Of a DNA stretch of 64,000 nucleotides, positions 6,586 to 25,925 are shown in pieces (position 1 is the first letter of the stretch; each line of letters opens with the position of its first letter). The stretch comes from Solimonas soli DSM 21787 (GTDB taxonomy: Bacteria; Pseudomonadota; Gammaproteobacteria; Nevskiales; Nevskiaceae): the NCBI RefSeq assembly GCF_000474945.1, contig NZ_KI440838.1, positions 1-64,000 on the forward strand. Reading direction: 5' to 3'. The position numbers were made by a program, and so were the translations under genes. The notes below the pieces were generated by a model. That model worked only from the letters and a program-made list of their open reading frames with translations, made no database searches and was not told the origin of the DNA.

Positions 6586-7494
6586 ATGCTCCGTTCTCCG
6601 CTGCTCCGGCGAGCCGTGCCCCTGGCCATGGCCCTGTGGTCCGTGCTGCCGGCCTTCGCTGATGACTCCTGCGACGTCTGCATGCAATGGAACGAGCCGG
6701 TCGATCCGTTCCGCATCTACGGCAATACCTTCTACGTCGGCGCCAAGGGGCTGAGCAGCCTGCTCGTCACCTCGCCGCAGGGTCACATCCTGATCGACGG
6801 CGGCCTGCCGGAATCGGCGCCGCTGATCGCGCAGAACATCGTCGCGCTGGGCTTCAAGTTCGAGGACGTGAAACTGATCCTCAACTCGCATGCGCACTTC
6901 GATCATGCCGGCGGCCTCGCGGAACTGGCGCGCGAGAGCGGCGCGCAGGTGGTGACGAGCCCCTGGAGCGCCATGGTGCTGCGCAGCGGCGGCAAGTTCG
7001 ACGCGGGCGATCCGCAGGCCGGCACGCTGAAGCGTTTCCCCATGTGGACGCACCCGCAGACCGTCGAGGACGGCCAGTCGGTGAGCGTCGGCGGCACGCA
7101 GATCACCGCGCACTACACCGGCGGGCACACGCCGGGCGGCCTGAGCTGGACCTGGCAGTCGTGCGACAACAACAATCACTGCCTCAACATGGTGTACGCC
7201 GACAGCCTCACGCCGGTGGCCGCGCCGAAGTTCCGCTTCAGCAAGAACAAGACGTACAGCAATGTGCTCGCCGACTTCGAGCACAGCTTCCAGCTGATCG
7301 ACGCGCTGCCCTGCGACATCCTGATCACGCCCCATCCCGATGCATCGGCACTGTGGGCGCGCCGCGAAGCACAGGAAGAGGGCGACACGACCAATCCCTA
7401 CGTCGATCCGCAGGCCTGCCACAACTATGTGGCGATCGCGCGGCTGGCCTTGCAGAAGCGTCTCGCGGAAGAGCAGGCCGGCACCGTCAAATAG
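6586..7494 (+). CDS. Subclass B3 metallo-beta-lactamase
   Basis: This periplasmic zinc hydrolase opens beta-lactam rings. The 302-aa protein has a signal peptide ending near residue 25 (LWSVLPAFA). All B3 zinc ligands can be seen: H102, H104, D106 and H107 in SHAHFDHAGG, H181 in GGHTPGG, and H250 in LITPHPDASALW. The length and motif order match chromosomal B3 enzymes of environmental bacteria. It follows a LysR remnant in the same direction rather than an intact divergent AmpR-type regulator, so no dedicated regulator is visible. Hydrolysis of specific drugs cannot be read from the sequence. Confidence 0.92.
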   Translation: MLRSPLLRRAVPLAMALWSVLPAFADDSCDVCMQWNEPVDPFRIYGNTFYVGAKGLSSLLVTSPQGHILIDGGLPESAPLIAQNIVALGFKFEDVKLILNSHAHFDHAGGLAELARESGAQVVTSPWSAMVLRSGGKFDAGDPQAGTLKRFPMWTHPQTVEDGQSVSVGGTQITAHYTGGHTPGGLSWTWQSCDNNNHCLNMVYADSLTPVAAPKFRFSKNKTYSNVLADFEHSFQLIDALPCDILITPHPDASALWARREAQEEGDTTNPYVDPQACHNYVAIARLALQKRLAEEQAGTVK

Positions 7495-7574
7495 CGACAA
7501 GTGCTTGATGCGGCGGCGGCCGGCGTGCGGCAGGGCGGCGACGCGGCCCCGGCTTGCGCAGCCGCGGCGATGGA

Positions 7575-7590
7575 TGGCATGGTGCTTGCG
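7575..7590 (+). promoter_or_regulatory. Sigma-54 promoter of the guanidine operon
   Basis: TGGCATGGTGCTTGC matches the sigma-54 consensus TGGCAYG-N4-TTGC at every fixed position, with GG at 7576-7577 and GC at 7588-7589 exactly 10 bases apart. Transcription would start about 12 bases later, near 7601, immediately before the riboswitch. No convincing NtrC-type enhancer pair was found in the 180 bp upstream. Confidence 0.7.
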
Positions 7591-7605
7591 GTAGTCATTT
7601 CAGAG

Positions 7606-7712
7606 TTGGTGGCTAGGGTTCCGGTGCGCCGCGGTGGCGCATGACTGGTCCGAGAGCTGCCGCCCGGGACGAAAAAACCGGAGCACGGCGGGATAAAAGC
7701 CCGGGAGACCTC
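7606..7712 (+). promoter_or_regulatory. Guanidine-I riboswitch (ykkC-yxkD type 1 aptamer)
   Basis: The conserved blocks of the ykkC aptamer appear in order and with normal spacing: CTAGGGTTCCGG at 7613, ACTGGTCCGAGAG at 7643, and GCACGGCGGGATAAAAGC followed by CCGGGAGA near 7683-7708. These form the guanidinium pocket in the type 1 class. The downstream genes are the known guanidine-degradation set, which argues against the ppGpp and PRPP variants. No U-tract terminator is seen in the 95 bases between aptamer and start codon, so the expression platform may act on translation or by an unrecognised hairpin. Confidence 0.93.
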
Positions 7713-7807
7713 GACGGCCAGAATCTGGTGATCGTTCGAGTGCTTTCTTCGCCCGTACTCTCACCCGATCCTCGCCGACCTATCGGCTCATCTTCTGAGG
7801 ATCGCAA

Positions 7808-8881
7808 ATGAAACGGTTCAACTCCATTGCCAGGGTCGCGCTCGCCGCGGCCGTGCTGACCGCGTCGGTCATGGCGCCGGCGCAGGCCCAGCCCAAGAAG
7901 GAATTCGACATCGCCTGGTCGATCTATGTCGGCTGGATGCCGTGGCCGTATGCCGAGCAGGCCGGCATCGTCAAGAAGTGGGCCGACAAGTACGGCATCA
8001 AGATCAAGATCACGCAGATCAACGACTACGTCGAGTCGATCAACCAGTACACCGCCGGCAAGTTCGACGGCGTGACCGTCACCAACATGGACGCGCTGAC
8101 CATTCCGGCCGCCGGCGGCGTCGACACCACGGCGCTGATCGTCGGCGATTACTCCAACGGCAATGACGGCATCGTGCTCAAGCAGGGCAAGACGCTGGCC
8201 GACATCAAGGGCCAGAAGGTCAATCTGGTCGAGCTGTCGGTTTCGCACTATCTGCTGGCGCGCGCGCTGTCGACGATCGGCCTCGGCGAGAAGGACATCA
8301 AGACCGTCAATACCTCGGATGCCGACATCGTCTCCGCGTATCAAGCCAAAGACACGACCTCGGTGGTGACATGGAATCCGCAGCTGGCGACCATCAAGGC
8401 CATGCCCGGCGCGGCACTGGTGTTCGATTCGTCGAAGATTCCCGGCGAGATCATCGACACGCTGTCGGTCAACACGCAGACGCTGCAGGACAACCCGGCG
8501 CTCGGCAAGGCGCTGGTCGGCATCTGGTACGAGACGCTCGCGCTGCTGCAGGACCCGGGTCCGAAAGGTGTGGCGGCGCGCACCGCAATGGCCAAGCTGT
8601 CCGGCGCGTCGCTCGAAAGCTTCGAGTCGCAGCTGAAGACGACCAGGATGTTCTACACGCCGGCCGAGACGGTCGCCTTCGTCAACGATGCCAAGCTGCA
8701 GAAGACCATGGATCTGGTGCGCACCTTCTCGTTCGATCATGGCCTGCTCGGCGCCGATGCCGCGACCAAGGATTTCGTCGGCATCGGCTTCGCGTCCGGC
8801 GCGACGCTCGGCAATCCGAAGAACGTGAAGCTGCGCTTCGATCCGAGTTATCTGGCGCTGGCGGCAGCCGGCAAGCTCTGA
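7808..8881 (+). CDS. ABC transporter substrate-binding protein of the guanidine operon
   Basis: The 357-aa protein has a signal peptide (ALAAAVLTASVMAPAQAQ, cleaved near residue 27) and an SsuA/ThiY-like periplasmic binding fold starting FDIAWSIYVGWMPWPYAEQ. A GAGGATC site precedes the ATG. It is the first gene after the guanidine-I riboswitch, and permease and ATPase genes follow, so it probably captures guanidine or a guanidino compound for import. Database entries often call this family a urea or nitrate/taurine transporter; the operon context favours guanidine. The ligand is inferred, not shown. Confidence 0.85.
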   Translation: MKRFNSIARVALAAAVLTASVMAPAQAQPKKEFDIAWSIYVGWMPWPYAEQAGIVKKWADKYGIKIKITQINDYVESINQYTAGKFDGVTVTNMDALTIPAAGGVDTTALIVGDYSNGNDGIVLKQGKTLADIKGQKVNLVELSVSHYLLARALSTIGLGEKDIKTVNTSDADIVSAYQAKDTTSVVTWNPQLATIKAMPGAALVFDSSKIPGEIIDTLSVNTQTLQDNPALGKALVGIWYETLALLQDPGPKGVAARTAMAKLSGASLESFESQLKTTRMFYTPAETVAFVNDAKLQKTMDLVRTFSFDHGLLGADAATKDFVGIGFASGATLGNPKNVKLRFDPSYLALAAAGKL

Positions 8882-8981: not shown

Positions 8982-9800
8982 GTGCGCCGCGTGATGAACG
9001 TGGCGCCCGGCCGCGGCAGCCGCTGGCTGCTCGCCTTGCTGCCGTTCGTGCTGATCGCGCTCGCCTACAACTTCGCCTCGGCGCAGCGCCATGCGGCGAA
9101 CCCGGACGACAAGGTGCTGCCGACGGCGTCGGCGATGGTCGACGCCATGCAGCGCGCGACGCAACCGGATCGCCGCAGCGGCGAGCGCGTGTTCTGGAGC
9201 GATACCGCGATCAGCCTCAAGCGCCTCGGCCTCGGACTGGCGATCTCGATCGTCATCGGCCTGGTGCTCGGCATGCTGATCGGCCTGCTGCCGGTCGCCG
9301 GCGCGACGCTGTCGCCGCTGATGGCGGTGGTCTCGATGATTCCGCCGATGGCGATCCTGCCGATCCTGTTCATCGCCTTCGGTCTCGATGAGCTGTCGAA
9401 GGTGGTGCTGATCGTCATCGGCGTCGCGCCCTGCCTGGTGCGCGATCTGGCGCTGAAGATCGGGCAGTTGCCGAGCGAGCAGCTGATCAAGGCGCAGACG
9501 CTCGGCGCATCGACCTGGCAGGTGATGCTGCGCGTCGCGCTGCCGCAGGCGATGCCGCGCCTGATCGAATCGCTGCGCCTGATGCTCGGCCCGGCCTTCC
9601 TGTTCCTGATCTCCGCCGAGGCGATCTCCGCCGACGCCGGGCTTGGCTATCGCATCTTCCTGGTGCGCCGCTACCTGGCGATGGACACCATCCTGCCGTA
9701 CGTCGCCTGGATCACCTTGCTCGCCTTCGTCGCCGACCTGCTGCTCGTGCAGCTGTCGCGGCGCGCCTTTCCGTGGGCGCACCTGGAGCGCCGGGCATGA
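8982..9800 (+). CDS. ABC transporter permease of the guanidine operon
   Basis: The 272-aa protein has about six membrane spans and the BPD-type EAA region (QTLGASTWQVMLRVALPQA) that docks to the ATPase. The start is taken as the GTG at 8982 because GGGAG lies 6 bases before it; the ATG at 8994 would leave this site too far away. A 100-bp spacer separates it from the binding protein gene. Its last codon overlaps the start of the ATPase gene (ATGA), indicating coupled translation. It belongs with SsuC/TauC-like permeases. Confidence 0.9.
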   Translation: MRRVMNVAPGRGSRWLLALLPFVLIALAYNFASAQRHAANPDDKVLPTASAMVDAMQRATQPDRRSGERVFWSDTAISLKRLGLGLAISIVIGLVLGMLIGLLPVAGATLSPLMAVVSMIPPMAILPILFIAFGLDELSKVVLIVIGVAPCLVRDLALKIGQLPSEQLIKAQTLGASTWQVMLRVALPQAMPRLIESLRLMLGPAFLFLISAEAISADAGLGYRIFLVRRYLAMDTILPYVAWITLLAFVADLLLVQLSRRAFPWAHLERRA

Positions 9801-10618
9801 GCGCGATCCGCGTCCGCAAGGTCTGGGTCGAGTACGGCGCGCAAATCGTGCTCGAGAAACTCCATCTCGACATCGCGGCGGGCGACTTCGTCGCCATCGT
9901 CGGTCCGTCCGGCTGCGGCAAGACCACGTTCCTGCGCCTGCTGCTCGGCCAGGAGCGGCCGACGCGCGGCGCGCTGCTGCTTGACGGCGAAGCCATGCCG
10001 AACGAGCCGGACGCCGACCGCGGCATCGTCTTCCAGCGCTACTCGGTGTTCCCGCATCTGACCGTGCTCGGCAATGTGCTGCTCGGCAGCGAACTGCAGG
10101 GCGCGCCCCTGCTGGCACGCCTGTTCGGTGCCAGGCGCCGCGAGCGGATCGCCGCGGCGCGGGCACTGCTCGAGGAAGTCGGCCTCGGCGAGCACCTGCA
10201 CAAATATCCTTCGCAGCTGTCCGGCGGCATGCAGCAGCGTCTCGCGCTCGCGCAGGCGCTGATCACGCGGCCGAAAGTGCTGCTGCTCGACGAGCCGTTC
10301 GGCGCGCTCGATCCCGGCATCCGCGCCGAGATCCACGTCGTGCTCAAGCGGCTGTGGAAGGAAACCGGCGTGACGATCGTGATGGTCACGCACGATCTGC
10401 GCGAGGCGTTTTCGCTCGCCACGCGCGTCGTCGTCTTCGATCGCTACCGCAAGCGCAAGGAAGAACGCACGCGCTACGGCGCGACGATCACACAGAACAT
10501 CGAGGTGCGCAAACGCGACACGGGCGCGAGCCTCGATGCCCAGAACCAGCTCGGCCGGGACGACCCGGCCACCGGGGAGCGACTCGGCCGGGACGACCTG
10601 GCATCCGCACAGCAATAA
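9797..10618 (+). CDS. ABC transporter ATPase of the guanidine operon
   Basis: This cytoplasmic subunit powers the importer. The 273-aa protein shows Walker A GPSGCGKTT at residues 36-44, the signature LSGGMQQR from residue 141, and Walker B LLLDEPFGALD from residue 162, followed by the switch histidine in VTHDLREA. It resembles SsuB/TauB proteins. The C-terminus carries an extra tail with an 11-residue near repeat (LGRDDPATGER then LGRDDLASA) that is not part of the ATPase fold. AAAGGAG for the next gene overlaps its stop. Confidence 0.93.
   Translation: MSAIRVRKVWVEYGAQIVLEKLHLDIAAGDFVAIVGPSGCGKTTFLRLLLGQERPTRGALLLDGEAMPNEPDADRGIVFQRYSVFPHLTVLGNVLLGSELQGAPLLARLFGARRRERIAAARALLEEVGLGEHLHKYPSQLSGGMQQRLALAQALITRPKVLLLDEPFGALDPGIRAEIHVVLKRLWKETGVTIVMVTHDLREAFSLATRVVVFDRYRKRKEERTRYGATITQNIEVRKRDTGASLDAQNQLGRDDPATGERLGRDDLASAQQ
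10550..10597 (+). repeat. Direct repeat in the ABC ATPase tail
   Basis: The 15-base unit CTCGGCCGGGACGAC occurs at 10550-10564 and again at 10583-10597, 33 bases apart. The spacing is a whole number of codons, so it encodes an 11-residue repeat at the protein's C-terminus and keeps the frame. It looks like a recent tandem duplication. Confidence 0.8.
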
Positions 10619-10628
10619 AGGAGTCGTC

Positions 10629-11459
10629 ATGGCGGAGTCTGCCGAGGTGGGCGCGATGATCGCGGCCAACCGTGAACGCTACATGCAACTGAAGGCGGCC
10701 GCGCAGGGCGGCAAGCTGCCGCTGCCGCCGCCGACGGCGCGTGACGCCGCGCCCCTCGATGCGTCGCGCCTGCTGCATCGCGAAGTGATTCCGGGCGGCT
10801 GGTACTGGACCACGCGGCTCGCGCGCGGCCAGGTTCTGCGCCTGCTCAATGCGCAGGCGACGCCCGGCGTGTCGTTCTTCGCCTGGAACGCCGACGACAC
10901 CAGCGAACGCTATAACGCCGGCGACACCGTGAAGGTGCAATGGACCGCCGCGCTCGCCAAGGGCCGCGTGCTGTTTTCCGACATGGGCCGCGTGCTGGCC
11001 TCGATCGTCGAGGACAGCTGCGCCGCGCACGACACCCTGCTCGGTGGCAGCACGGCGGCCAGCAACCGCGAGAAATACGGCGTCGAGCTGCTGCGCAACA
11101 CGCGCGACAACCTGGTGCTCGCCGCAGGCAAGCACGGCCTGACGCGCCGCGATCTGGCGCCGTGCATCACCTTCTTCGCGCCGGTCGCGACCGATGGCGA
11201 GGGTCGCTTCCACTGGCGCGACGGTGCGGTGCAGCCCGGCGACTTCGTCGATCTGCGCGCCGAGATGAATCTGCTCGTCGCGGTGTCGAACTGTCCGCAT
11301 CCGCTCGCACCCGGCGCCTACGCGCCGCAGCCGATCGAAGCCATCGTCAGCCGCGGCGTGCCGATCGCCGCCGGCGATCTTTGCCGCACGGCGACCGCCG
11401 AGGCGCGGCGCGGCTTCGACAACACCGATCCGCTGTTCGCCCACGCCGCGGAACTTTGA
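10629..11459 (+). CDS. Carboxyguanidine deiminase subunit (urea carboxylase-associated protein 1)
   Basis: This 276-aa protein belongs to the DUF1989 family, long labelled urea carboxylase-associated protein. Family members in this operon type act as a two-subunit deiminase that removes ammonia from carboxyguanidine to give allophanate. The protein pairs with the next gene, with which it shares the core pattern RxGQVLRLLNAQA, ERYNAGDTVKVQW, SCAAHDTLLGGS and ISNCPHPLAPG-like ending; the Cys and His residues in these are probable active or metal-site residues. AAAGGAG precedes the ATG. The literature symbols cgdA/cgdB apply to the pair, but which subunit is which is not certain here. Confidence 0.88.
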   Translation: MAESAEVGAMIAANRERYMQLKAAAQGGKLPLPPPTARDAAPLDASRLLHREVIPGGWYWTTRLARGQVLRLLNAQATPGVSFFAWNADDTSERYNAGDTVKVQWTAALAKGRVLFSDMGRVLASIVEDSCAAHDTLLGGSTAASNREKYGVELLRNTRDNLVLAAGKHGLTRRDLAPCITFFAPVATDGEGRFHWRDGAVQPGDFVDLRAEMNLLVAVSNCPHPLAPGAYAPQPIEAIVSRGVPIAAGDLCRTATAEARRGFDNTDPLFAHAAEL

Positions 11460-11469
11460 GGAGCGCGCG

Positions 11470-12108
11470 ATGAACGATCTCAGCAAGGCGCTCCGCGATC
11501 CGGCGCGCGCCGTCTACGACTTCACCATTCCGGCAACGCAGCCCTGGTCCGGGTCTCTGCGCCGCGGCCAGGTCCTGCGCATCGTCGACCTCGAAGGCCA
11601 GCAGGCGGTCGACACCCTGTTCTACAACGCCGCCGATTTCTCCGAGCGCTACAGCGCGCAGGACACGCTGTGCGCGCAGAACGGCGCCTACGTGACGACC
11701 GGCACGAGAATTCTCTCGAACGAAGGCCGCACGATGCTGACCGTGATCGGCGATACCTGCGGCGCGCACGACACCTCGGCCGGCGCCTGTTCCTGCGAAG
11801 CCAACACGGTGCGCTTCGGCCACCACACGCGCTACATGCACGCCTGCCGCGAGAACTTCCTGGTCGAAGTGGCGAAGCACGGCATGGGCAAGCGCGACAT
11901 CGTCGGCAACATCAACTTCTTCATGAACGTGCCGGTCGAGCCGGACGGCCGCCTGGCGATCGTCGACGGTGTGTCGAAGCCCGGCGATTACGTCGAGCTG
12001 CGCGCCGAGATGGACGTGCTGTGCGTGATCTCCAACTGCCCGCAGATCAACAATCCCTGCAATGGTTTCAACCCGACGCCGGTGCGCGTGCTGATCTGGG
12101 ACGCCTGA
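11470..12108 (+). CDS. Carboxyguanidine deiminase subunit (urea carboxylase-associated protein 2)
   Basis: The 212-aa partner of the preceding gene also belongs to DUF1989. Shared features are RRGQVLRIVDLEGQQAVDT, ERYSAQDTLCAQ, GDTCGAHDTSAGACSCEAN, and a closing CNGFNPTPVRVLIWD. The cluster of cysteines and the GAHD motif probably bind metal and substrate. Together the two subunits would turn the carboxylase product carboxyguanidine into allophanate and ammonia. A GAGGAG site precedes the ATG, 10 bp after the previous stop, so the two genes are likely made in step. Confidence 0.88.
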   Translation: MNDLSKALRDPARAVYDFTIPATQPWSGSLRRGQVLRIVDLEGQQAVDTLFYNAADFSERYSAQDTLCAQNGAYVTTGTRILSNEGRTMLTVIGDTCGAHDTSAGACSCEANTVRFGHHTRYMHACRENFLVEVAKHGMGKRDIVGNINFFMNVPVEPDGRLAIVDGVSKPGDYVELRAEMDVLCVISNCPQINNPCNGFNPTPVRVLIWDA

Positions 12109-12111
12109 GCC

Positions 12112-15100
12112 ATGTTCGACAAGGTCTTGATCGCCAACCGTGGCGAGATCGCCGGCCGCGTCGGGCGCACGCTGCGCGAGATGGGCATCCGCGCGGTCGC
12201 CGTCTATTCCGACGCCGATCGCTACACGGCGCCGGTGCTTGCCGCCGATGAAGCGGTGCGCGTCGGCAGCAACGCGGCGCGCGACAGCTATCTCAACGTC
12301 GACGCGATCATCGCCGCGTGCCTTGCGAGCGGCGCGCAAGCCGTACATCCCGGCTACGGCTTTCTCAGCGAGAACGCGGCGTTCGCCGAACGTCTCGCCG
12401 AGCATGGCGTCCGCTTCATCGGCCCGCGGCCCGAGCATCTGCGCGGCTTCGGCCTCAAGCACACGGCGCGCGAACTGGCGCAGCGCAGCGGCGTGCCGCT
12501 GCTGCCGGGCAGCGAGCTGCTCGCCGATGTCGGGCATGCGCTGCGCGAAGCCGAGCGCATCGGCTATCCGGTGATGCTGAAGAGCACCGCCGGCGGCGGC
12601 GGCATCGGCATGCAGCTCTGTTATGGCGCCGAGGACTTGCGCAGCCGCTTCGAAGCGGTGCAGCGCATGGCGAGGGCGAGCTTCGGCGATGCACGCGTCT
12701 ATCTGGAGCGCTATGTCGAAACCGCGCGCCATGTCGAAGTGCAGATTTTCGGCGACGGCCGTGGCCGCGTCGTCTCGCTCGGCGAGCGCGACTGCTCGCT
12801 GCAGCGGCGCAACCAGAAAGTCGTCGAGGAAACGCCGGCGCCGGGCTTGTCGGCGGCGCTGCGCGCGCGCCTGCACGCGGCGGCACGTGCGCTCGGCGAG
12901 GCGGTGCAGTACGAATCGGCTGGCACCGTCGAGTTCATCTACGACGTCGCGCGCGACGATTTCTATTTCCTCGAAGTGAACACGCGGCTGCAGGTCGAGC
13001 ATCCGGTCACCGAAAGCGTCTACGGCATCGATCTCGTCGAGTGGATGCTGCGGCAGGCGGCCGGCGAGTTCGCCCTGCCGGCGCAGGAGGCGCTCGTGCC
13101 GCGCGGCGCGGCGATCGAAGTGCGGCTCTACGCCGAGAATCCGCAGCTCGATTTCCGGCCCTCGGCCGGCCTGCTGACCGAAGTGAGCTACCCCGACGGC
13201 GTGCGCGTCGACGGCTGGATCGAGACCGGCAGCGAGGTGACGCCGTACTACGATCCGATGCTCGCCAAGCTGATCGTGCACGCCGAGACGCGCGAGGCGG
13301 CCATCGCGAAGCTCGCTGCGGCGCTGCGGGAGACGGCGATCCACGGCATCGAGACCAATCTCGATTATCTGCGCCAGATCGTCGCCGGCGGGGCTTTCAG
13401 CAGCGGCGCGGTGGCGACGCGCGTGCTCAAGGCATTCGCCTACCGCCCGCGCAGCATCGAAGTGCTGGCGCCCGGCGCGCAGAGCAGCGTGCAGGATCAT
13501 CCGGGCCGTCTCGGGTACTGGGATGTCGGCATTCCGCCGTCCGGACCGATGGATGCGCGCTCGTTCGCGCTGGCCAATCGCGCCGTCGGCAATGCGCCGG
13601 GCACGGCGGCGCTCGAATGCACGGTCAACGGTCCGCGCCTGCGCTTTCACGGCGATGCGCTGATCGCGCTGGCCGGTGCCGAAATGCCGGCGACGCTCGA
13701 TGACGTCGCCGTGCCGTATTACGAGCCGATCGCAGTGCGGGCCGGGCAGGTGCTCGCGCTCGGCACGATCGCCGGCGCCGGGCAACGCAGCTATCTCGCC
13801 GTGCGCGGCGGCCTCGATGCGCCGCTCTATCTCGGATCGCGTTCGACGTTCTCGCTCGGCGGCTTCGGCGGTCATGCGAGCGGCGTGCTGAGGGCCGGCG
13901 ACACGCTGCAGCTGGCCGACGATACGACGGCGATCGTCGGCGATGCCGTGGCGATCGCCGCCGACGAGCGCCCGCGGCTGGCGCGCGAATGGCAGCTCGA
14001 GGTGCTGTACGGCCCGCATGGCGCGCCGGATTTCTTCCAGCCGGACGACATCGCGACGCTGTTCAGCGCCGAATACCAAGTCCACTTCAACAGTGCGCGC
14101 ACCGGCGTGCGCCTGATCGGCCCGCGGCCGGCCTGGGCGCGCGCCGACGGCGGCGAGGCCGGCCTGCATCCGTCGAACATCCATGACAATGCCTACGCGA
14201 TCGGCGCCATCGACTTCACCGGCGACATGCCGATCATTCTCGGCCCCGATGGCCCGAGCCTCGGCGGCTTCGTCTGCCCGGCGGTCGTGACGCGCGACGA
14301 TCTGTGGAAGCTCGGCCAGCTGAAGCCCGGCGACAAGCTGCGCTTCGTGCCGAAGCTGGAGATCGCCGAGGCGACGGCGAGCGCGACGCCTTACGGTTCC
14401 GCGATCTTCGCGACGCGCGACGACGGCCCGGTGCCGGTCGTCTATCGCCGCGCCGGCGATGATTACCTGCTCGTCGAATACGGGCCGATGGCGCTCGACA
14501 TCGCGCTGCGCCTGCGCGTGCATCTGCTGATGCAGGCGGTGCGCGCCGCGAAGCTGCCCGGTCTGATCGACCTGACGCCGGGCATCCGCTCGCTGCAGAT
14601 CCACTACGACAGCCGCGTGCTGAAGCGCGCGAAACTGCTGGCCGCGCTCGCCCGGATCGAACGCCATCTGCCGGCGGCCGAAGACGTCGTCGTGCCGAGC
14701 CGCATCGTGCATCTGCCGCTGTCGTGGAACGATCCGTCGGTGCAGCTGGCGATGCGCAAGTACCAGGAGCTGGTGCGCCCGAACGCGCCATGGTGTCCGG
14801 ACAACATCGAGTTCATCCGCCGCATCAACGGTCTCGCCTCGCGTGACGACGTGCAGCGTACCGTGCTCGACGCGAGCTATCTGGTCATGGGCCTCGGTGA
14901 TGTCTATCTCGGCGCGCCGGTCGCGACGCCCGTCGATCCGCGCCATCGCCTCGTCACCACCAAGTACAACCCGGCGCGCACCTGGACGCCGGAGAACGCG
15001 GTCGGCATCGGTGGCGCGTACCTGTGCGTCTACGGCATGGAAGGGCCGGGCGGCTACCAGCTGTTCGGCCGCACCCTGCAGATGTGGAACCGCTGGAAGA

Positions 15101-15639
15101 AGACCGCGGCCTTCGAGCGGCCCTGGCTGCTGCGCTTCTTCGATCAGATCCGCTTCCATCGGGTCAGCGACGCCGAACTCGCCGAGGCACGCGAGGCGTT
15201 CCCGCACGGCCGCTATCCGCTGCGCATCGAGGAGACGACGTTCTCGTACGCCGCGTATGCACGCTTCCTCGCCGACCACGCGGCGAGCATCACGGCGTTC
15301 AAGGCGAAGCAGCAGGCGGCGTTCGAGGCCGAACGCGCCGACTGGAAGGCGCGTGGTCTCGACACCTTCGCGGTCGACGACGGCGCGATCGTCGCCGGCG
15401 ACGACAGCCTGCCGCAGGGCTGCGTCGGCGTCGCTTCGCACGTCACCGGCAGCGTCTGGAAGATTCTCGCCGATGCCGGCCAGACGATCGAAGCCGGGCA
15501 GCCGCTGCTGGTCGTCGAGTCGATGAAAATGGAAATGGAGATCTGTGCGCAGCAGGGGGGCCGCGTGCGCGAGCTGCGCTGCCAGCCGGGGCGCACCGTG
15601 CAGTCGGGCCAGCTGGTCGCCGTGATCGAGGCCGCCTGA
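12112..15639 (+). CDS. Biotin-dependent guanidine (urea-type) carboxylase
   Basis: This 1175-aa cytoplasmic enzyme carboxylates guanidine using ATP, bicarbonate and bound biotin. Domain order is as in urea carboxylase. Biotin carboxylase covers residues 1 to about 450 (KVLIANRGEIAGRV, STAGGGGIGMQLCYG, FLEVNTRLQVEHPVTE). The carboxyltransferase follows as KipA-like then KipI-like halves (from IEVLAPGAQSSVQDHPGRLG to about 980). The biotinyl domain closes the protein with VESMKMEME, and the biotinylated lysine is K1139. The fused allophanate hydrolase of yeast urea amidolyase is absent and is encoded next door. Guanidine rather than urea is inferred from the riboswitch and the deiminase genes. 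Confidence 0.93.
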   Translation: MFDKVLIANRGEIAGRVGRTLREMGIRAVAVYSDADRYTAPVLAADEAVRVGSNAARDSYLNVDAIIAACLASGAQAVHPGYGFLSENAAFAERLAEHGVRFIGPRPEHLRGFGLKHTARELAQRSGVPLLPGSELLADVGHALREAERIGYPVMLKSTAGGGGIGMQLCYGAEDLRSRFEAVQRMARASFGDARVYLERYVETARHVEVQIFGDGRGRVVSLGERDCSLQRRNQKVVEETPAPGLSAALRARLHAAARALGEAVQYESAGTVEFIYDVARDDFYFLEVNTRLQVEHPVTESVYGIDLVEWMLRQAAGEFALPAQEALVPRGAAIEVRLYAENPQLDFRPSAGLLTEVSYPDGVRVDGWIETGSEVTPYYDPMLAKLIVHAETREAAIAKLAAALRETAIHGIETNLDYLRQIVAGGAFSSGAVATRVLKAFAYRPRSIEVLAPGAQSSVQDHPGRLGYWDVGIPPSGPMDARSFALANRAVGNAPGTAALECTVNGPRLRFHGDALIALAGAEMPATLDDVAVPYYEPIAVRAGQVLALGTIAGAGQRSYLAVRGGLDAPLYLGSRSTFSLGGFGGHASGVLRAGDTLQLADDTTAIVGDAVAIAADERPRLAREWQLEVLYGPHGAPDFFQPDDIATLFSAEYQVHFNSARTGVRLIGPRPAWARADGGEAGLHPSNIHDNAYAIGAIDFTGDMPIILGPDGPSLGGFVCPAVVTRDDLWKLGQLKPGDKLRFVPKLEIAEATASATPYGSAIFATRDDGPVPVVYRRAGDDYLLVEYGPMALDIALRLRVHLLMQAVRAAKLPGLIDLTPGIRSLQIHYDSRVLKRAKLLAALARIERHLPAAEDVVVPSRIVHLPLSWNDPSVQLAMRKYQELVRPNAPWCPDNIEFIRRINGLASRDDVQRTVLDASYLVMGLGDVYLGAPVATPVDPRHRLVTTKYNPARTWTPENAVGIGGAYLCVYGMEGPGGYQLFGRTLQMWNRWKKTAAFERPWLLRFFDQIRFHRVSDAELAEAREAFPHGRYPLRIEETTFSYAAYARFLADHAASITAFKAKQQAAFEAERADWKARGLDTFAVDDGAIVAGDDSLPQGCVGVASHVTGSVWKILADAGQTIEAGQPLLVVESMKMEMEICAQQGGRVRELRCQPGRTVQSGQLVAVIEAA

Positions 15640-15640
15640 G

Positions 15641-17437
15641 ATGAGCCTGATGGCCTTCCCGAAGAAGCTCGACCTGGCGACGCTGCAGGCGCTGTATGCG
15701 AGCGGCCGCGCGACGCCGCTCGATGTCGTCGACGAAGTGCTGCGTCGCTGCGATGCGTATGCGGCGCTCGATCCGGCGGTGTGGATCGGCCGCGCCGACG
15801 CCGACGCGCTGCGCGACGAGGCACGCGCGCTGATCGTCGCCGGCCGCCGTGCCGACCAGCCGCTGTGGGGCGTGCCGTTCGCGGCCAAGGACAACATCGA
15901 TTGCCGCGGCATTGACACGACCGCGGCATGTCCGGAGTTCGCGTATCGTCCGAGCGACGATGCGACGGTGGTCGCGCGCCTGCGTGCGGCCGGTGCGCTG
16001 CTCGTCGGCAAGACCAATCTCGATCAGTTCGCGACCGGCCTCAACGGCACGCGCTCGCCCTACGGCGCGCCGCGCTCGGTCTACAGCCGCGAGCACGTGT
16101 CCGGCGGCTCGAGTTCCGGCTCGGCGGTCGCCGTCGCGGCAGGGCTCGTGGCGTTCTCGCTGGGCACCGACACCGCCGGGTCGGGGCGCGTGCCGGCGGC
16201 CTTCAACGGCCTCGTCGGCCTCAAGCCGACGCGCGGCTGGCTCAGCACGCGCGGCGTGGTGCCGGCCTGTCGCAGTCTCGATTGCGTGTCGGTGTTCGCG
16301 AACAGCGTGACGGACGCCGAGCGGATCGCGGATGTCGCCGGCGCCTATGACGCCGGCGATGCGTACTCGCGGCGCGCGCCGGCGGCGCCCGCGGCGCGCT
16401 TGCCGCGTCGCTTCGGTGTTCCGGCGGCGCCGCGCTTCTTCGGCGACGCGCAGGCCGAACAGGCCTGGCAGCGCGTTTGCGCGCAAGCGCGCGAAGGCGG
16501 CGCCGAACTGCTGCCGCTCGATTTCGAGGTGCTGCACGACATCGCGGCGCTGCTCTATGACGGCCCCTGGGTCGCCGAGCGCCTGGCGGCGACCGAGGAT
16601 TTCCTGCGCGAACACGCCGACGCGATGCATCCGGTCGTGCGCGCGATCGTCGAGCAGGGGCGCAAGTACTCGGCCGTCGACGCATTCCGTGCCGAGTACC
16701 GGCTGCGTGAACTGAAGCCGCGCGCCGAGGCGCTGATGGCGTCGGTCGATGCGCTGCTGGTGCCGACCGCGCCGTCGATGCCGACCGTCGCGCAACTGCT
16801 CGCCGACCCGGTCCAGCCGAACAGCGAACTCGGTACCTATACCAACTTCGTCAATCTGCTCGACTGGTCGGCGCTCGCGGTGCCGGCCGGCCTGCGTGAT
16901 GACGGCCTGCCGTTCGGCATCACCCTGATCGGCCCGGCCTGGGCCGACCGCGCGCTGGCCGCGTTCGGCCGGCGCTGGCTGCGCGAAAGTCCTGAACAAG
17001 CCGCTGGAGCAAAACCGATGTCCGTGCATGAACCCGCCGCCGATCATGTCCGTCTCGCCGTCGTCGGCGCGCATCTGCGCGGCATGCCGCTCAATCGCGA
17101 ACTCGGCGAGCGCGACGCGATCTTCGTCGAGACCACGCACACTTCCAGCGACTATCGTCTCTACGCACTCGCCAACACCCAGCCGCCGAAGCCGGGCCTC
17201 GCGAAAACCGGCGACGGCGCGCCGATCGAAGTCGAGCTGTGGGACGTGCCGCTGAGCGCGTTCGGCTCGTTCGTCGCCGGCGTGCCGGCGCCGCTCGGCA
17301 TCGGCACGCTGACGCTCGCCGACGGCCGCACGGTGAAGGGCTTCATCTGCGAAGGCTGGGCGCTGGCCGACGCGCTCGACATCACCGCGCACGGCGGCTG
17401 GCGCGCATACCGCGCCTCGCTCGCGCCGCCGGCCTGA
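15641..17437 (+). CDS. atzF: Allophanate hydrolase
   Basis: Allophanate hydrolase splits allophanate into ammonia and carbon dioxide, the last step of guanidine use. The 598-aa protein is of the usual length. Residues 1-450 form the amidase-signature domain with K83 (AAKDN), the serine loop SGGSSSGS at residues 154-161, and the nucleophile S181 in DTAGSGRVP. Residues from about 465 (MSVHEPAADHVRLAVVGAHL) form the small C-terminal domain typical of AtzF that decarboxylates the intermediate. It starts 1 bp after the carboxylase stop and closes the operon. Confidence 0.95.
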   Translation: MSLMAFPKKLDLATLQALYASGRATPLDVVDEVLRRCDAYAALDPAVWIGRADADALRDEARALIVAGRRADQPLWGVPFAAKDNIDCRGIDTTAACPEFAYRPSDDATVVARLRAAGALLVGKTNLDQFATGLNGTRSPYGAPRSVYSREHVSGGSSSGSAVAVAAGLVAFSLGTDTAGSGRVPAAFNGLVGLKPTRGWLSTRGVVPACRSLDCVSVFANSVTDAERIADVAGAYDAGDAYSRRAPAAPAARLPRRFGVPAAPRFFGDAQAEQAWQRVCAQAREGGAELLPLDFEVLHDIAALLYDGPWVAERLAATEDFLREHADAMHPVVRAIVEQGRKYSAVDAFRAEYRLRELKPRAEALMASVDALLVPTAPSMPTVAQLLADPVQPNSELGTYTNFVNLLDWSALAVPAGLRDDGLPFGITLIGPAWADRALAAFGRRWLRESPEQAAGAKPMSVHEPAADHVRLAVVGAHLRGMPLNRELGERDAIFVETTHTSSDYRLYALANTQPPKPGLAKTGDGAPIEVELWDVPLSAFGSFVAGVPAPLGIGTLTLADGRTVKGFICEGWALADALDITAHGGWRAYRASLAPPA

Positions 17438-20989: not shown

Positions 20990-21110
20990 ATTCCTTGCGC
21001 GGCCATATCGTAAACGCCGTTCCGAAGCGCGTGTCTGAGGGGTTTCCCGGTGGCTATGTGAATGTTGCAGTGGGGGAAACAGACAATTGACGCCGGCCTC
21101 GGAACGTGCG

Positions 21111-21126
21111 TGGCATGGGCCTTGCG
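21111..21126 (+). promoter_or_regulatory. Sigma-54 promoter of the TIGR02001-type outer membrane protein gene
   Basis: TGGCATGGGCCTTGCGA fits the sigma-54 consensus fully, with GG at 21112-21113 and GC at 21124-21125 exactly 10 bases apart. The start of transcription would lie near 21137, giving a leader of about 56 nt. Confidence 0.72.
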
Positions 21127-21192
21127 ATGTTCGGCCGGGGCCGTGTGCAACGCTGCACGCGGAGGATCCATCCACTTGGGAAGAGCAAATAC

Positions 21193-21987
21193 ATGGAATT
21201 CAAGCGTTCAGTGGTGAGCGCCGTACTCATCGGCGCGGCGGCGTTCTCGGGCAGCGCGATGGCCGGCGTTACAGGCAACGTCGGAGCTGTCAGCGAGTAT
21301 TTCTTCCGCGGCCTCGCCCAGGACTCGGTGATCACGGGCCGATCGGATGGCAAGCCGGCGATCCAGGGCGGCATTGACTACGCGCACGACTCCGGGTTCT
21401 ACGCAGGCATCTGGGGTTCGAATGTCAGCTGGGGCGCGGGCGGCTCGGAAACCGACCTCTATCTCGGCTATTCCACGAAGATCGCGGACACGTTCGGCAT
21501 TGACGTCGGTGCGATCTATTACGCTTATTTCGACTACAAGGGCGACGCCAACGACGCCGCTGACACCGATCCGAACACGGTCGAAGGGTACATCAAGCTT
21601 TCGTACGGCCCGATTGCGCTGCAGTACTACTACAGCCCGAGCTACTTCGGCACGTCGCCGGCCTATGCGGGATCGAATCCGGCCGACAACGATGAGGTGA
21701 AGAACTCGTACATCGCGCTGATCGGTACGTTCCCGCTCAGCGATTCTCTCAATTTCATCGTGAGCGTTGGCGACACGATCAGCAGCGAAGATGTGTGGAT
21801 CACGAAAAGCGACGGCAGCTACAAGGATTCGTACATCGACTACAACGTTGGTCTTAGCAAGGCCATCGATGAGACACTGAGCGTCGGGTTCTCGATCATT
21901 GGCACGACGTTGAAGCGTGCGGATGATCCGAGCAAGTCGGATGGCCCGAACTTCGTCGTCAGCGCCAAGAAGACCTTCGCGCTCTGA
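21193..21987 (+). CDS. TorF-like (TIGR02001) outer membrane beta-barrel protein
   Basis: The start is the ATG at 21193 (MEFKRSVVSAVLIGAAAF), which gives a clean signal peptide cleaved after AMA near residue 24. The mature part of about 240 residues is rich in Gly, Tyr, Ser and Asp and made of alternating strands (VGAVSEYFFRGLAQDS, YAGIWGSNVSWG, EVKNSYIALIGTFPL), ending in the typical aromatic-Leu close KKTFAL. The family is a proteobacterial outer membrane protein of unknown role, often found near glnK-amtB. Here the sigma-54 promoter and NtrC-like site suggest induction in nitrogen shortage, so a channel for nitrogen compounds is a fair guess. Codon use is less GC3-biased than its neighbours. 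Confidence 0.8.
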   Translation: MEFKRSVVSAVLIGAAAFSGSAMAGVTGNVGAVSEYFFRGLAQDSVITGRSDGKPAIQGGIDYAHDSGFYAGIWGSNVSWGAGGSETDLYLGYSTKIADTFGIDVGAIYYAYFDYKGDANDAADTDPNTVEGYIKLSYGPIALQYYYSPSYFGTSPAYAGSNPADNDEVKNSYIALIGTFPLSDSLNFIVSVGDTISSEDVWITKSDGSYKDSYIDYNVGLSKAIDETLSVGFSIIGTTLKRADDPSKSDGPNFVVSAKKTFAL

Positions 21988-22005
21988 GTTTTTCTAGCCG
22001 TGCAC

Positions 22006-22034
22006 AAAAGGGCCGCCTCGCGCGGCCCTTTTTT
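22006..22034. terminator. Bidirectional rho-independent terminator
   Basis: AAAAGGGCCGC and GCGGCCCTTTTTT form a 7-bp GC stem extended by A-T pairs. It lies between the convergent outer membrane protein gene and comM and has T-tracts on both strands. Confidence 0.92.
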
Positions 22035-22042
22035 GTGGGCGC

Positions 22043-23545
22043 TCAGGCCGGCGCGGCGGAATCGCGGTAGCGCAATGCCTCGGCGACATGCGCGGCCGCG
22101 ACCGCGTCGCTGCCCGCCAGGTCGGCGATCGTGCGCGCGACGCGCAGCACGCGGTGATAGGCGCGCGCCGACAGGGCGAGCTTCTGCATCGCCTGCTGCA
22201 GCAGCGCCAGGCCGGCGCGTTCCGGCATCGCCATGTTCTCCAGTTCGCGCACGCCGAGTCGCGCGTTCGGCTTGCCCTGCCGGCCCAGCTGGCGTTCGCG
22301 CGCGGCGATCACGCGGGCGCGTACCGCGGCGCTCGTTTCGCCCGGCGGCGCGTCGCTGCGCAGCCATTCTTCGCGGTCGACGCGCGGCACGAACAGCTGC
22401 AGGTCGATGCGGTCGAGCAGAGGCCCCGAAATGCGCGAGCGGTAGCGGGCGATCTGATCCGGCGTGCAGCGGCAGTCCGCGCCGCGATCGCCGAGATGTC
22501 CGCACGGGCAGGGGTTCATCGCGGCGATGAGCTGGAAGCGCGCCGGGAACTCGGCCTGGCGCGCGGCGCGCGAGATGGTGATCGTGCCGCTCTCGAGCGG
22601 CTCGCGCAGTACTTCCAGCACGTCGCGTGCGAATTCCGGCAGCTCGTCGAGAAACAGCACGCCGTGATGCGCCAGCGTGATTTCGCCCGGCTTCGGGCTG
22701 CTGCCGCCGCCGACCAGCGCGACGCCGGACGCCGTGTGGTGCGGCGCGCGAAACGGCCGCCGGCCCCACTGCGCGATATCGAAGCCGCGGCCGATCGACG
22801 CGACGGCGGCGACTTCGAGGGCTTCGTCGTCGGACAGCGGCGGCAGGATGCCGGGCAGGCGCTGTGCGAGCATCGACTTGCCGCTGCCCGGCGGGCCGAT
22901 GAGCAGGAGCGAATGCGAGCCGGCGGCGGCGATCTCGAGCGCGCGCTTGGCGAGCGCCTGGCCGCGCACGTCGGTGAGATCGTCGACGACGTGCGTGACG
23001 CGTGGCGACGGCGCGACGGCCGCCGTGCTGAGCGTGCCCTGATGCAGTTCGGCGCAGAGCACGCCGAGCTGTGCGGCGACATGAATGCGCGCGCCCTGGG
23101 CGAGGCAGGCTTCGGCGGCATTGGCCTGCGGGACCAGCAGGGCGCGGCCGGCGGCGGCGGCTTTCAGCGCGGCCGGCAGCGCGCCGCGGATCGGCCGGAT
23201 CTCGCCGGACAGCGACAGCTCGCCGAGCACTTCCAGTTCGCGCAGCGACTCGGCCGGGATCTGCTGCGAGGCGGCGAGGATGCCGAGGGCGATCGCCAGG
23301 TCGAAACGCGAGCCGTCCTTCGGCAGGTCGGCCGGCGCCAGGTTGCAGGTGATGCGCTGCAGCGGAAAGCGGTAGCCGCTGTTGACGATCGCAGCCCGCA
23401 CGCGATCGCGCGCTTCGCGCACCGAAGCTTCCGGCAGACCGACGATCGTCAGCCCGGGCAGACCGGGGGCGAGGTGGACTTCGACGTGGACGGGATCGGC
23501 GGCGAGACCGTTCTGGGCGCGGGCGTGGACCGTGGCGAGCGACAT
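22043..23545 (-). CDS. comM: ComM/YifB Mg-chelatase-like AAA+ ATPase
   Basis: ComM is a hexameric helicase that drives branch migration when single-stranded donor DNA is integrated during natural transformation. The 500-aa protein has the N-terminal Lon-like ChlI domain (PGLPGLTIVGLPEASVREA), Walker A GPPGSGKSML, Walker B GVLFLDELPEF, a Cys-rich NPCPCGHLGDRGADCRC segment, and a C-terminal Mg_chelatase_C part (LSARAYHRVLRVARTIADL). It is full length. It forms a unit with ubiK, 14 bp upstream. The presence of comM alone does not prove competence. Confidence 0.95.
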   Translation of the reverse strand: MSLATVHARAQNGLAADPVHVEVHLAPGLPGLTIVGLPEASVREARDRVRAAIVNSGYRFPLQRITCNLAPADLPKDGSRFDLAIALGILAASQQIPAESLRELEVLGELSLSGEIRPIRGALPAALKAAAAGRALLVPQANAAEACLAQGARIHVAAQLGVLCAELHQGTLSTAAVAPSPRVTHVVDDLTDVRGQALAKRALEIAAAGSHSLLLIGPPGSGKSMLAQRLPGILPPLSDDEALEVAAVASIGRGFDIAQWGRRPFRAPHHTASGVALVGGGSSPKPGEITLAHHGVLFLDELPEFARDVLEVLREPLESGTITISRAARQAEFPARFQLIAAMNPCPCGHLGDRGADCRCTPDQIARYRSRISGPLLDRIDLQLFVPRVDREEWLRSDAPPGETSAAVRARVIAARERQLGRQGKPNARLGVRELENMAMPERAGLALLQQAMQKLALSARAYHRVLRVARTIADLAGSDAVAAAHVAEALRYRDSAAPA

Positions 23546-23559
23546 GCCGCCGATGCTAA

Positions 23560-23826
23560 TCAGGCCGGCGGCTTGCCTTGGTGCGCTGCTTCACGCTGTT
23601 CGAGCGCCTTGATGCGCTTCTCCAGCGCGGCGAGCTTCTTCTGCGTGCGTGCCAGCAGCTCGGCCTGGATGTCGAAGCGCTCGCGCGACACGAGGTCCCA
23701 TTTCTCCAGATTGGCGCGCAGCATGGCGCGGAAGTTCTCTTCGAGTTCGCCGCGCAGGCTGCGCAGTCCGGGCGGCAGGGCGCCGGCGAGCTTGCTGGCG
23801 AGGTCTTCGATGCGGCGGGTGTCCAT
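23560..23826 (-). CDS. ubiK: Ubiquinone biosynthesis accessory factor UbiK (BMFP family)
   Basis: The 88-aa protein has an N-terminal amphipathic helix (TRRIEDLASKLAGALPPGLR) and a C-terminal coiled coil (LLARTQKKLAALEKRIKALE), the pattern of UbiK/YqiC. UbiK binds UbiJ and lipids and supports aerobic ubiquinone synthesis. The start is the ATG at 23826; the frame runs on upstream but loses the family pattern. It is encoded just before comM on the same strand, and divergent from glnK. Confidence 0.9.
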   Translation of the reverse strand: MDTRRIEDLASKLAGALPPGLRSLRGELEENFRAMLRANLEKWDLVSRERFDIQAELLARTQKKLAALEKRIKALEQREAAHQGKPPA

Positions 23827-23891
23827 GGCGGGAGCGGTCGGGGGCGTTTCGCGATTATGCCTCGACGATACGCCGCCGCCCTGCACGGCAA

Positions 23892-23908
23892 TGCACCGAC
23901 ATGGTGCG
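23892..23908 (+). promoter_or_regulatory. NtrC-like enhancer site upstream of glnK
   Basis: TGCACC-GACAT-GGTGCG matches the NtrC consensus TGCACC-N5-GGTGCA at 11 of 12 positions. Its centre lies about 75 bp before the predicted sigma-54 start site, in the gap between ubiK and glnK. Confidence 0.65.
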
Positions 23909-23948
23909 GGACGGCGGGTGAATCGCACTGCCAATGCCCCGAAACGGC

Positions 23949-23964
23949 TGGCATGGTCCATGCT
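23949..23964 (+). promoter_or_regulatory. Sigma-54 promoter of glnK-amtB
   Basis: TGGCATGGTCCATGCT has GG at 23950-23951 and GC at 23962-23963, exactly 10 bases apart, and departs from consensus only in one base of the -12 box (ATGC for TTGC). Expected transcription start is near 23975, with a 63-nt leader to glnK. Confidence 0.7.
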
Positions 23965-23992
23965 TTGAAGGCCGAGGCCGCCGGGGTGATGA

Positions 23993-24376
<384 letters not shown>

Positions 24377-24389
24377 GGGGGATTACGCA

Positions 24390-25925
24390 ATGATGCGCAA
24401 AATTTTGAGCGCCGCGATGCTCGCGGCGGTATTCGGGCTCGCGCCGGCGGCGTGGGCTGATGACAGCGCCGCGCCGGCGCCGGCGGCTTCGACCGTCGCG
24501 GCACCTGCCGCCGATGCGGCGGCTCCAGCGGAGGCTGCGCCGGCCGAAGCGGCGCCGGCCGAAGCGGCCGCTGCCGAGGCTCCGGCGGCCGTGCCGCATT
24601 GCGGCGACAAGGGTTTCGATTGCAACAAGGGCGACACGGCGTGGATGCTGGTGTCGACTGCCTTCGTGCTGTTCATGACGGTGCCGGGCCTCGCGCTGTT
24701 CTACGCCGGCATGGTGCGCTCCAAGAACGCGCTGTCGACGGTGATGCAGAGCTTCGCGATCTTCTGCGTGATCGCCGTGCTCTGGGCCGCCTACGGCTAC
24801 AGCGTCGCCTTCACGGTCGGCAATCCGTTCTTCGGCTCGCTCGACAAGCTGTTCCTGCACGGCGTCGATGCCAGCACGGTCGGCGCGACATTCAGCAAGG
24901 GCCAGTACATCCCGGAGCTCGTCTTCGTCGCCTTCCAGCTGACCTTCGCCGCGATCACCGTCGCGCTGGTCACCGGCGGCTTCGCCGAGCGCATGAAGTT
25001 CTCGGCCGTGATGATCTTCAGCGTCGTCTGGTTCACGATCTCCTACCTGCCGATGGCGCACATGGTGTGGCTGTGGGACGGTCCGGACGCCTACACCAGC
25101 GCTGATGCGGCGACGGCGGCGGGCGAGCACGCCGGCTTCCTGTTCCAGAAGGGCGCCATCGACTTCGCCGGCGGCACGGTCGTGCACATCAATGCCGGTA
25201 TCGCGGCGCTGGTCGCGGCGATCATCGTCGGTCCGCGCAAGGGCCTCGGCAAGTTCCACTTCGCGCCGCACAGCCTGATGATGACGGCGATCGGCACCGG
25301 CATGCTGTGGATGGGCTGGTTCGGCTTCAACGCCGGTTCCAACCTCGAAGCCACCGGCTCGGCGGGCATGGCGTTCTTCAACACCCTGTTCGGCACCGCG
25401 GTCGCCGGCGTTGCCTGGACGGGCGCCGAATGGCTGACGAAGGGCAAGCCGAGCCTGCTCGGCATCTGCTCGGGCATCGTCGCCGGTCTGGTCGCGATCA
25501 CCCCGGCTTGCGGTTTCGTCGGTCCGATGGGCGCATTCTGGATCTGCGCGATCGCCGGTGTGGTGTGCTTCTTCGCGGCGACCAAGCTCAAGGCCCTGCT
25601 CGGCTATGACGACGCGCTCGACGCCTTCGGCGTGCACGCCGTCGGCGGCATCATCGGCGCCATCGGCACGGGCATCTTCGTCAACCCGGCCCTCGGCGGC
25701 TCGGGCGTGTACGACTACGTCGCCAACGCGGTCGGCGCCTACGACATGAAGGCGCAAGTCATCGCGCAGCTCTGGGGCGTCGGCACGGCCATCGTATGGT
25801 CGGGCGTCTCGGCGGCCGTGATCCTGCTGATCCTGAAGTACACGATCGGCGTCCGCTCGAGCGACGAGGCGCAGGAAGAAGGTCTCGACATCGCCGACCA
25901 CGGCGAGAAGGCCTACAACCAGTAA
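24390..25925 (+). CDS. amtB: Ammonium transporter AmtB
   Basis: AmtB conducts ammonium/ammonia across the inner membrane. The 511-aa protein has a cleavable signal (MLAAVFGLAPAAWA, residues 9-22), then a periplasmic Ala/Pro/Glu stretch to about residue 68, then 11 membrane spans. Key parts are TAWMLVSTAFVLFMT-VPGLALFYAG, the phenylalanine gate region, and the twin histidines in VVHINAGIAAL and DAFGVHAVGG. The N-terminal linker contains short PAEAA repeats and is longer than in E. coli AmtB. A GAGGGG site precedes the start, and a strong terminator follows the gene. Confidence 0.96.
   Translation: MMRKILSAAMLAAVFGLAPAAWADDSAAPAPAASTVAAPAADAAAPAEAAPAEAAPAEAAAAEAPAAVPHCGDKGFDCNKGDTAWMLVSTAFVLFMTVPGLALFYAGMVRSKNALSTVMQSFAIFCVIAVLWAAYGYSVAFTVGNPFFGSLDKLFLHGVDASTVGATFSKGQYIPELVFVAFQLTFAAITVALVTGGFAERMKFSAVMIFSVVWFTISYLPMAHMVWLWDGPDAYTSADAATAAGEHAGFLFQKGAIDFAGGTVVHINAGIAALVAAIIVGPRKGLGKFHFAPHSLMMTAIGTGMLWMGWFGFNAGSNLEATGSAGMAFFNTLFGTAVAGVAWTGAEWLTKGKPSLLGICSGIVAGLVAITPACGFVGPMGAFWICAIAGVVCFFAATKLKALLGYDDALDAFGVHAVGGIIGAIGTGIFVNPALGGSGVYDYVANAVGAYDMKAQVIAQLWGVGTAIVWSGVSAAVILLILKYTIGVRSSDEAQEEGLDIADHGEKAYNQ

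Follow-up and report, generated by a model that had tools for sequence, protein, structure and literature searches.

We analyzed a window of 64,000 nucleotides (nt) of forward-strand DNA from Solimonas soli DSM 21787 (contig NZ_KI440838.1, positions 1 to 64,000). It holds the gene set of a guanidine carboxylase operon, in which the carboxylase, two DUF1989 subunits, an allophanate hydrolase and an ABC importer stand together (Table 1). The nearest named relatives of the transporter are found in Solimonas flava (85% protein identity) and S. aquatica (78%). For the DUF1989 protein UAAP1, whose open reading frame (ORF) opens at 10536, position 10629 is the likely start. Directly upstream of the operon, an ORF at 6586-7494 matches subclass B3 metallo-beta-lactamases (NF033105, 340 bits).

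Two guanidine sensors lie on the one predicted transcript. The initial annotation had drawn a picture with a single switch, the Guanidine-I (ykkC) aptamer at 7602-7709; to this is added a Guanidine-II riboswitch at 10552-10601, which overlaps the ABC ATPase ORF at its 3' end and is separated by 27 nt from the probable start of the first enzyme gene. The riboswitches suggest that the carboxylase prefers guanidine to urea. At the 3' end of the Guanidine-I aptamer, a conserved hairpin (7704-7746) is a possible expression platform: 92.5% of its cells pair, as against at most 52.5% when it is slid, with no two-sided covariation. A scan of the Guanidine-I leader recognized no intrinsic terminator, and the leader folds no better than its shuffles (z -0.59).

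Table 1. Predicted features of the guanidine operon and its leader, in window coordinates.
Feature	Position	Strand	Support
Sigma-54 promoter core, -24 TGGCATG / -12 TTGCG	7575..7590	+	11/12 consensus letters; core kept in 14/15 family aptamers
Predicted transcription start (+1 ~7601)	7600..7602	+	inferred from spacing, C(-12) = 7589
Guanidine-I riboswitch aptamer (RF00442)	7602..7709	+	81.4 bits, cut-off 63; full length
Conserved hairpin, can pair aptamer 3' GGAG; possible expression platform	7704..7746	+	alignment and pairing
ABC transporter substrate-binding protein (TIGR03427)	7808..8881	+	548.8 bits, cut-off 333.9
ABC permease	8982..9800	+	PF00528
ABC ATP-binding protein	9773..10618	+	PF00005; family match ends ~10445
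Guanidine-II (mini-ykkC) riboswitch (RF01068), inside the operon before the first enzyme gene	10552..10601	+	37.1 bits, cut-off 32
DUF1989 protein UAAP1, likely carboxyguanidine deiminase subunit	10629..11459	+	TIGR03425, 275.9 bits, cut-off 205.95
DUF1989 protein UAAP2, likely second deiminase subunit	11470..12108	+	TIGR03424, 344.1 bits, cut-off 284.7
Urea/guanidine carboxylase (TIGR02712)	12112..15639	+	1861.6 bits, cut-off 1303.85
Allophanate hydrolase (TIGR02713)	15641..17437	+	811.6 bits, cut-off 511.05

A sigma-54 core of the form GG-N10-GC had been proposed before the ykkC aptamer, with transcription starting about 5 bases ahead of the latter, and such a core is indeed found. Scored against the sigma-54 consensus TGGCAYRN4TTGCW, the letters TGGCATGGTGCTTGCG (7575-7590, plus strand) agree at 11 of the 12 specified positions, with GG at 7576-7577, GC at 7588-7589 and a 10-nt spacer between them; the sole mismatch is the final base, a G in place of A/T. 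The predicted +1 (~7601) falls 1 base 5' of Rfam position 1 and 7 bases short of the first aptamer stem, close to the start first suggested.

The bare GG-N10-GC pattern occurs at chance level (1513 found, 1522 expected) and is worthless as evidence alone, and the 15-mer TGGCAYRN4TTGC with at most one mismatch is not enriched in the window (6 sites, 4.1 expected). Exact copies of this 15-mer number 17 in the 4.19-Mb genome versus 2 for the reversed pattern, and two of them, at 7575 and 21111, lie within the window, where cores with at least 11 of 12 letters have a density of 0.0039 per 100 nt of one strand, real cores included. The second exact core (21111-21125) precedes the gene of a TorF-family putative porin (TIGR02001, 138 bits), beyond which lies an ammonium transporter gene (TIGR00836, 430 bits); the region 21106-25925 is possibly another nitrogen-controlled unit.

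The decisive evidence came from the alignment of six loci of the genus or family, in which, ahead of the aptamer, nothing is invariant except TGGC, TTGC and two isolated G columns standing farther upstream. Because the -24 and -12 boxes are conserved in all six, we regard the core directly before the Guanidine-I aptamer as real and, at the level of sequence, confirmed. Its assignment to sigma-54 agrees with the letters of the boxes, with their conservation at promoter position and with the presence of both RpoN and an activator in the genome. A conserved RNA element in place of a promoter was also considered and was rejected on geometry, the distance to the aptamer ranging from 5 to more than 70 nt at constant box spacing.

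We then counted as positive any core with at least 10 of 12 letters within 150 nt upstream of an aptamer; since the scan required GG and GC, those four letters are at 100% by construction. In samples that overlap and share ancestry, and hence are not independent, the core was present at 14/15 aptamers of the family (58 genomes searched, 15 with an aptamer), 22/24 of the order (where one of the two negatives is an aptamer below the cut-off), 33/38 of the class sample (369 genomes, 29 with aptamers) and 45/55 aptamers above the Rfam cut-off in the phylum sample (398 genomes, 43 with aptamers). The ten phylum-sample aptamers without a core are those of loci L078, L082, L198, L205, L213, L217, L222, L226, L228 and L229. 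Below the cut-off, the same sample held three aptamers, of which two were scored, neither with a core; at the third (L232) the profile found no aptamer. Named GTDB loci chosen by their transporter, likewise part of these overlapping samples, had an aptamer by profile in 69 of 80 cases, giving 72 aptamers, 65 with a core.

The pairing also occurs on plasmids. Among nine of 235 plasmid records, hand-picked for variety, five of six aptamers had a core (Pantoea ananatis AJ13355, Serratia proteamaculans, Caballeronia sp. NK8, Rhizobium leguminosarum WSM1325 and R. tropici CIAT 899); the aptamer on the plasmid of Sinorhizobium fredii NGR234 lacked one, and three records contained neither element. 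One genus, presumably Burkholderia, carries two aptamers in each of 31 of its 61 genomes; in the 30 of these 31 that were read, the aptamers stand back to back and all 60 cores match 11/12 letters, at 34 or 39 nt. With the loci pooled and deduplicated and this genus collapsed, the core was found at 164 of 188 aptamers, a count that leaves out the 0/32 of a putative ammonia-oxidizer family described below. By these sequence counts, the pairing of a predicted sigma-54 core with a Guanidine-I aptamer is widespread among Proteobacteria.

Controls were run on the first 59 aptamers, 52 of which were positive within 100 nt. The antisense strand gave 1 hit, regions 700 nt upstream 0/58, regions 300 nt downstream 0/59, and dinucleotide shuffles a mean of 1.45 and a maximum of 5. 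As a weaker control, with 25 of the 30 matches below the Rfam cut-off, TPP riboswitch loci were examined, and a core of 10/12 letters or better lay within 120 nt in 1/30 cases. Named loci without an aptamer had such a core within 400 nt of the transporter match in 2/11 cases, a contrast that is only suggestive since in some of them the transporter lies inside another operon.

Two further arrangements were seen in the course of these searches. In L233-L262, L122, L125, L133 and L224, each stretch contains two opposed Guanidine-I riboswitches, each with its own sigma-54 core, one switch directed at transporter genes and its partner at genes that are carboxylase-associated or belong to the arginase family. 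Within a single genus, the Guanidine-I riboswitch stands before the transporter (L001, L009, L011, L014) or before a DUF1989 gene (L006, L013, L015).

The initial annotation had expected other ykkC operons to carry the core at the same distance. The core recurred in every sample; its distance showed two modes rather than one. Measured from the -12 C to the aptamer, 64 of the 164 positive cases have a gap of 5-16 nt (with a peak of 29 cases at 12 nt), the other 100 have one of at least 33 nt, and no gap of 17-32 nt occurs. Transcripts of the short-gap class would begin at the edge of the aptamer. The labels short, long and none were placed on a quick-method tree of 145 transporter proteins, in which some long branches (L060, L207 and others) are unreliable; they require 12 changes, compared with 57 when shuffled. 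The short-gap operons of Solimonas group with those of Bradyrhizobium, Methylopila and other Alphaproteobacteria; other genera of its family have long-gap operons that group with Pseudomonas and Caballeronia.

As the spacing class follows the transporter tree, promoter, riboswitch and operon would have been inherited and exchanged together, and the first two seem to travel as one cassette. A broader proposal, to which we give somewhat less than even credence, is that the sigma-54 core and the Guanidine-I aptamer form a single heritable regulatory unit in Pseudomonadota, passed between lineages along with the transporter operon. Its geometry would be fixed in one of two forms, with transcription starting either at the edge of the aptamer or at least 20 nt ahead of it and nothing in between, and lineages that use guanidine for energy or have lost rpoN would discard it. 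If this is true, the fixed spacing would imply that a leak-proof promoter is coupled in function to a sensor reading from the first nucleotide, beyond mere adjacency.

The loci without a core bear on the last part of this proposal. rpoN was present in 64 of the 65 genomes with a core (the exception being G391); among 15 genomes without one, it was not found in three and was split over two frames in one. Two of the three, G669 and G769, have an aptamer above the cut-off, and G639 a weak one. In G446, the genome with the split match, the core is missing and the nearest relatives on the tree keep it. Seven of the ten coreless aptamers of the phylum sample sit in genomes with an unsplit rpoN match (weaker in G816); as most coreless genomes keep rpoN, a missing core has other causes besides the loss of sigma-54.

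The core was also absent from all 32 aptamers read in one proteobacterial family (120 genomes; 30 of the 99 positive ones read), 27 of which precede an APC permease, four a carboxylase and one an allophanate hydrolase; G404, the sole genome of the family tested for it, has rpoN. This family may consist of ammonia oxidizers. In the available parts of a study of comammox Nitrospira, Guanidine-I precedes an APC permease, a Guanidine-I operon of the ammonia oxidizer Nitrosospira multiformis is also named, and N. inopinata uses ammonium and guanidine together (PMC11410670). Organisms that draw energy from guanidine would have no reason to await nitrogen starvation, and the prediction is that assimilators carry the sigma-54 core and energy users do not. 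Sub-cut-off aptamers before EamA-type permeases were coreless as well (L027, recognized by Pfam; L230 and L231, by eye).

As for the activator, the genome of S. soli has three rpoN matches (L016-L018) and an NtrC of 710.8 bits (cut-off 558.6). Upstream of the operon, it had been noted that no clear NtrC site is visible, and this holds for the window: within 300-400 nt of the core, the best 17-mer matches 9 of 13 letters when read forward or 10 in reverse, and it sits in the upstream coding sequence. The relatives add what the window lacks. Palindromes of the form GCAC-N7-GTGC lie upstream in 19 of 121 non-redundant regions (two-aptamer genus removed, similar regions thinned) where about 1.2 would be expected, namely 14 of 75 in the long-gap class (0.92 after shuffling) and 5 of 46 in the short-gap class (0.28); 16 of the 19 are centered 61-140 nt above the -24 box, and six other palindrome spacers gave 0-3 regions. 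One such palindrome belongs to a locus of the same genus and one to a locus of the same family (L011, L012). A first count of 36/167 regions (2.4 expected) was set aside, as it was inflated by near relatives from one genus and by palindromes shared between divergent pairs.

Published RNA-seq data point the same way. An ntrC mutant of Burkholderia cenocepacia H111 under nitrogen limitation shows a log2 change of -6.0 for a 'urea carboxylase' transcript; for two neighbors labeled 'urea carboxylase-related', an ABC transporter periplasmic protein and an aminomethyltransferase, the entry reads na(m). Of the top 150 genes affected by NtrC, 95% are under sigma-54 regulation as well (PMC5491218). Judged by name, these 'urea carboxylase' genes look like the counterpart of the guanidine operon and may likewise follow a Guanidine-I riboswitch.

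The control that we propose joins these elements. A polymerase with sigma-54 opens DNA only with the help of an activated enhancer-binding protein, and its promoter is silent otherwise. Under nitrogen limitation, phosphorylated NtrC would remodel the polymerase and transcription would begin at the edge of the Guanidine-I aptamer, so that the nascent RNA could fold the aptamer at once; elongation into the operon would follow only when guanidine is bound. Given that sigma-54 needs an activator and that the aptamer is transcribed first, expression of the operon would require both a shortage of nitrogen and the presence of guanidine. That the guanidine operon is such an AND gate of sigma-54/NtrC-sensed nitrogen limitation and a guanidine riboswitch is, in our judgment, likely; a two-input gate acting in series had been suggested from the window, and the co-occurrence of core and aptamer in the family, order, class and phylum samples lends it support. 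For S. soli itself, we infer the use of the promoter, the role of NtrC as its activator and the direction in which the riboswitch acts. The Guanidine-II switch would then probably gate translation of the enzymes, a mode of control proposed for Vreelandella boliviensis (PMC12508155).

Other readings of the locus were weighed against this one. Chance alone, in a genome rich in GC, might be invoked to explain the core, given the chance-level frequency of the bare motif and the unremarkable number of near matches in the window, but conservation across the phylum and the antisense, displaced and shuffled controls leave this reading with hardly any credibility. The promoter could also be real and yet answer, in this genus, to another enhancer-binding protein, in which case the first input would not be nitrogen status. 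Candidates are 13 further matches in the genome that score 246 to 411 bits, strong over the central part of the NtrC model and short of its cut-off, and the window has no clear NtrC site. We nevertheless consider this unlikely in view of the NtrC-type palindromes enriched upstream of the relatives' operons, including L011 and L012, of the ntrC dependence of the presumed B. cenocepacia counterpart (PMC5491218, as far as available), and of the cargo itself, which is a nitrogen substrate.

About as improbable is an arrangement of two promoters, in which a sigma-70 promoter elsewhere yields the main guanidine-responsive transcript and sigma-54 adds to it only under starvation. Some aptamers in rpoN-containing genomes have no core and hence must be transcribed otherwise; at the locus, however, a simple consensus scan of 7200-7830 revealed no sigma-70-like site, and in the short-gap class the sigma-54 start would be fixed at the aptamer edge. 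The AND gate stays our preferred reading.

It is usual to regard guanidine riboswitches as all that controls the use of guanidine. Should most proteobacterial guanidine-assimilation operons also be shut by nitrogen sufficiency, the riboswitch would be the second of two locks, experiments in ammonium-rich medium would under-report induction by guanidine, and the view of guanidine as a nitrogen source, as opposed to a poison for export, would gain an independent genomic argument.

The initial annotation knew of no description of this pairing. That part stands, insofar as we found no paper that states it in open-licence full texts, titles and abstracts, where the matches that came up concerned a fish pathogen's transcriptome and c-di-GMP, and no text joined ykkC with NtrC; parts of it, however, were already printed without being recognized (PMC12316311 and PMC5491218). 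Word searches found no NtrC, sigma, RpoN or nitrogen limitation in a 2025 review (PMC12186494), no match for these genes in PMC5748707, and no NtrC or RpoN in a Herbaspirillum paper with two ykkC leaders (PMC7011215). For these genes, PMC12421884 yielded nothing beyond an unrelated mention of a ppGpp reporter, and a Mycobacterium paper (PMC4222082) nothing beyond passages on GlnR.

Among known systems, the guanidine carboxylase operon of V. boliviensis is the closest in layout, with a similar gene set, Guanidine-I in front and Guanidine-II within, before the carboxylase; the available text of that paper contains no NtrC or sigma factor by word search (PMC12508155), whereas here a sigma-54 promoter is seen as a regular partner. 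The NtrC/sigma-54 regulon of nitrogen-scavenging genes in B. cenocepacia H111 shares with our proposal the sigma-54 control of 'urea carboxylase' genes (PMC5491218), and a sigma-54 survey predicts such control for COG3665 (102 genes, 59% named urea carboxylase; PMC12316311). In the searchable portions of both, 'guanid' does not occur, and 'riboswitch' is absent from the first and confined to a reference title in the second. In comammox Nitrospira, as here, Guanidine-I gates genes for guanidine use; the available passages discuss the riboswitch as an on/off control, with ammonium and guanidine used together (PMC11410670). As far as the literature search reached, the pieces are in print and their pairing is not.

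Placing a protein regulator and a riboswitch in series is not in itself new. PurR with the guanine riboswitch, PhoP with the mgtA leader and NtcA with the glutamine riboswitch are reportedly cases in which, as proposed here, promoter control and leader control multiply. To our knowledge, none of them uses sigma-54 with its obligatory activator, and the combination of sigma-54 with Guanidine-I would thus represent a new and widespread form of this known principle.
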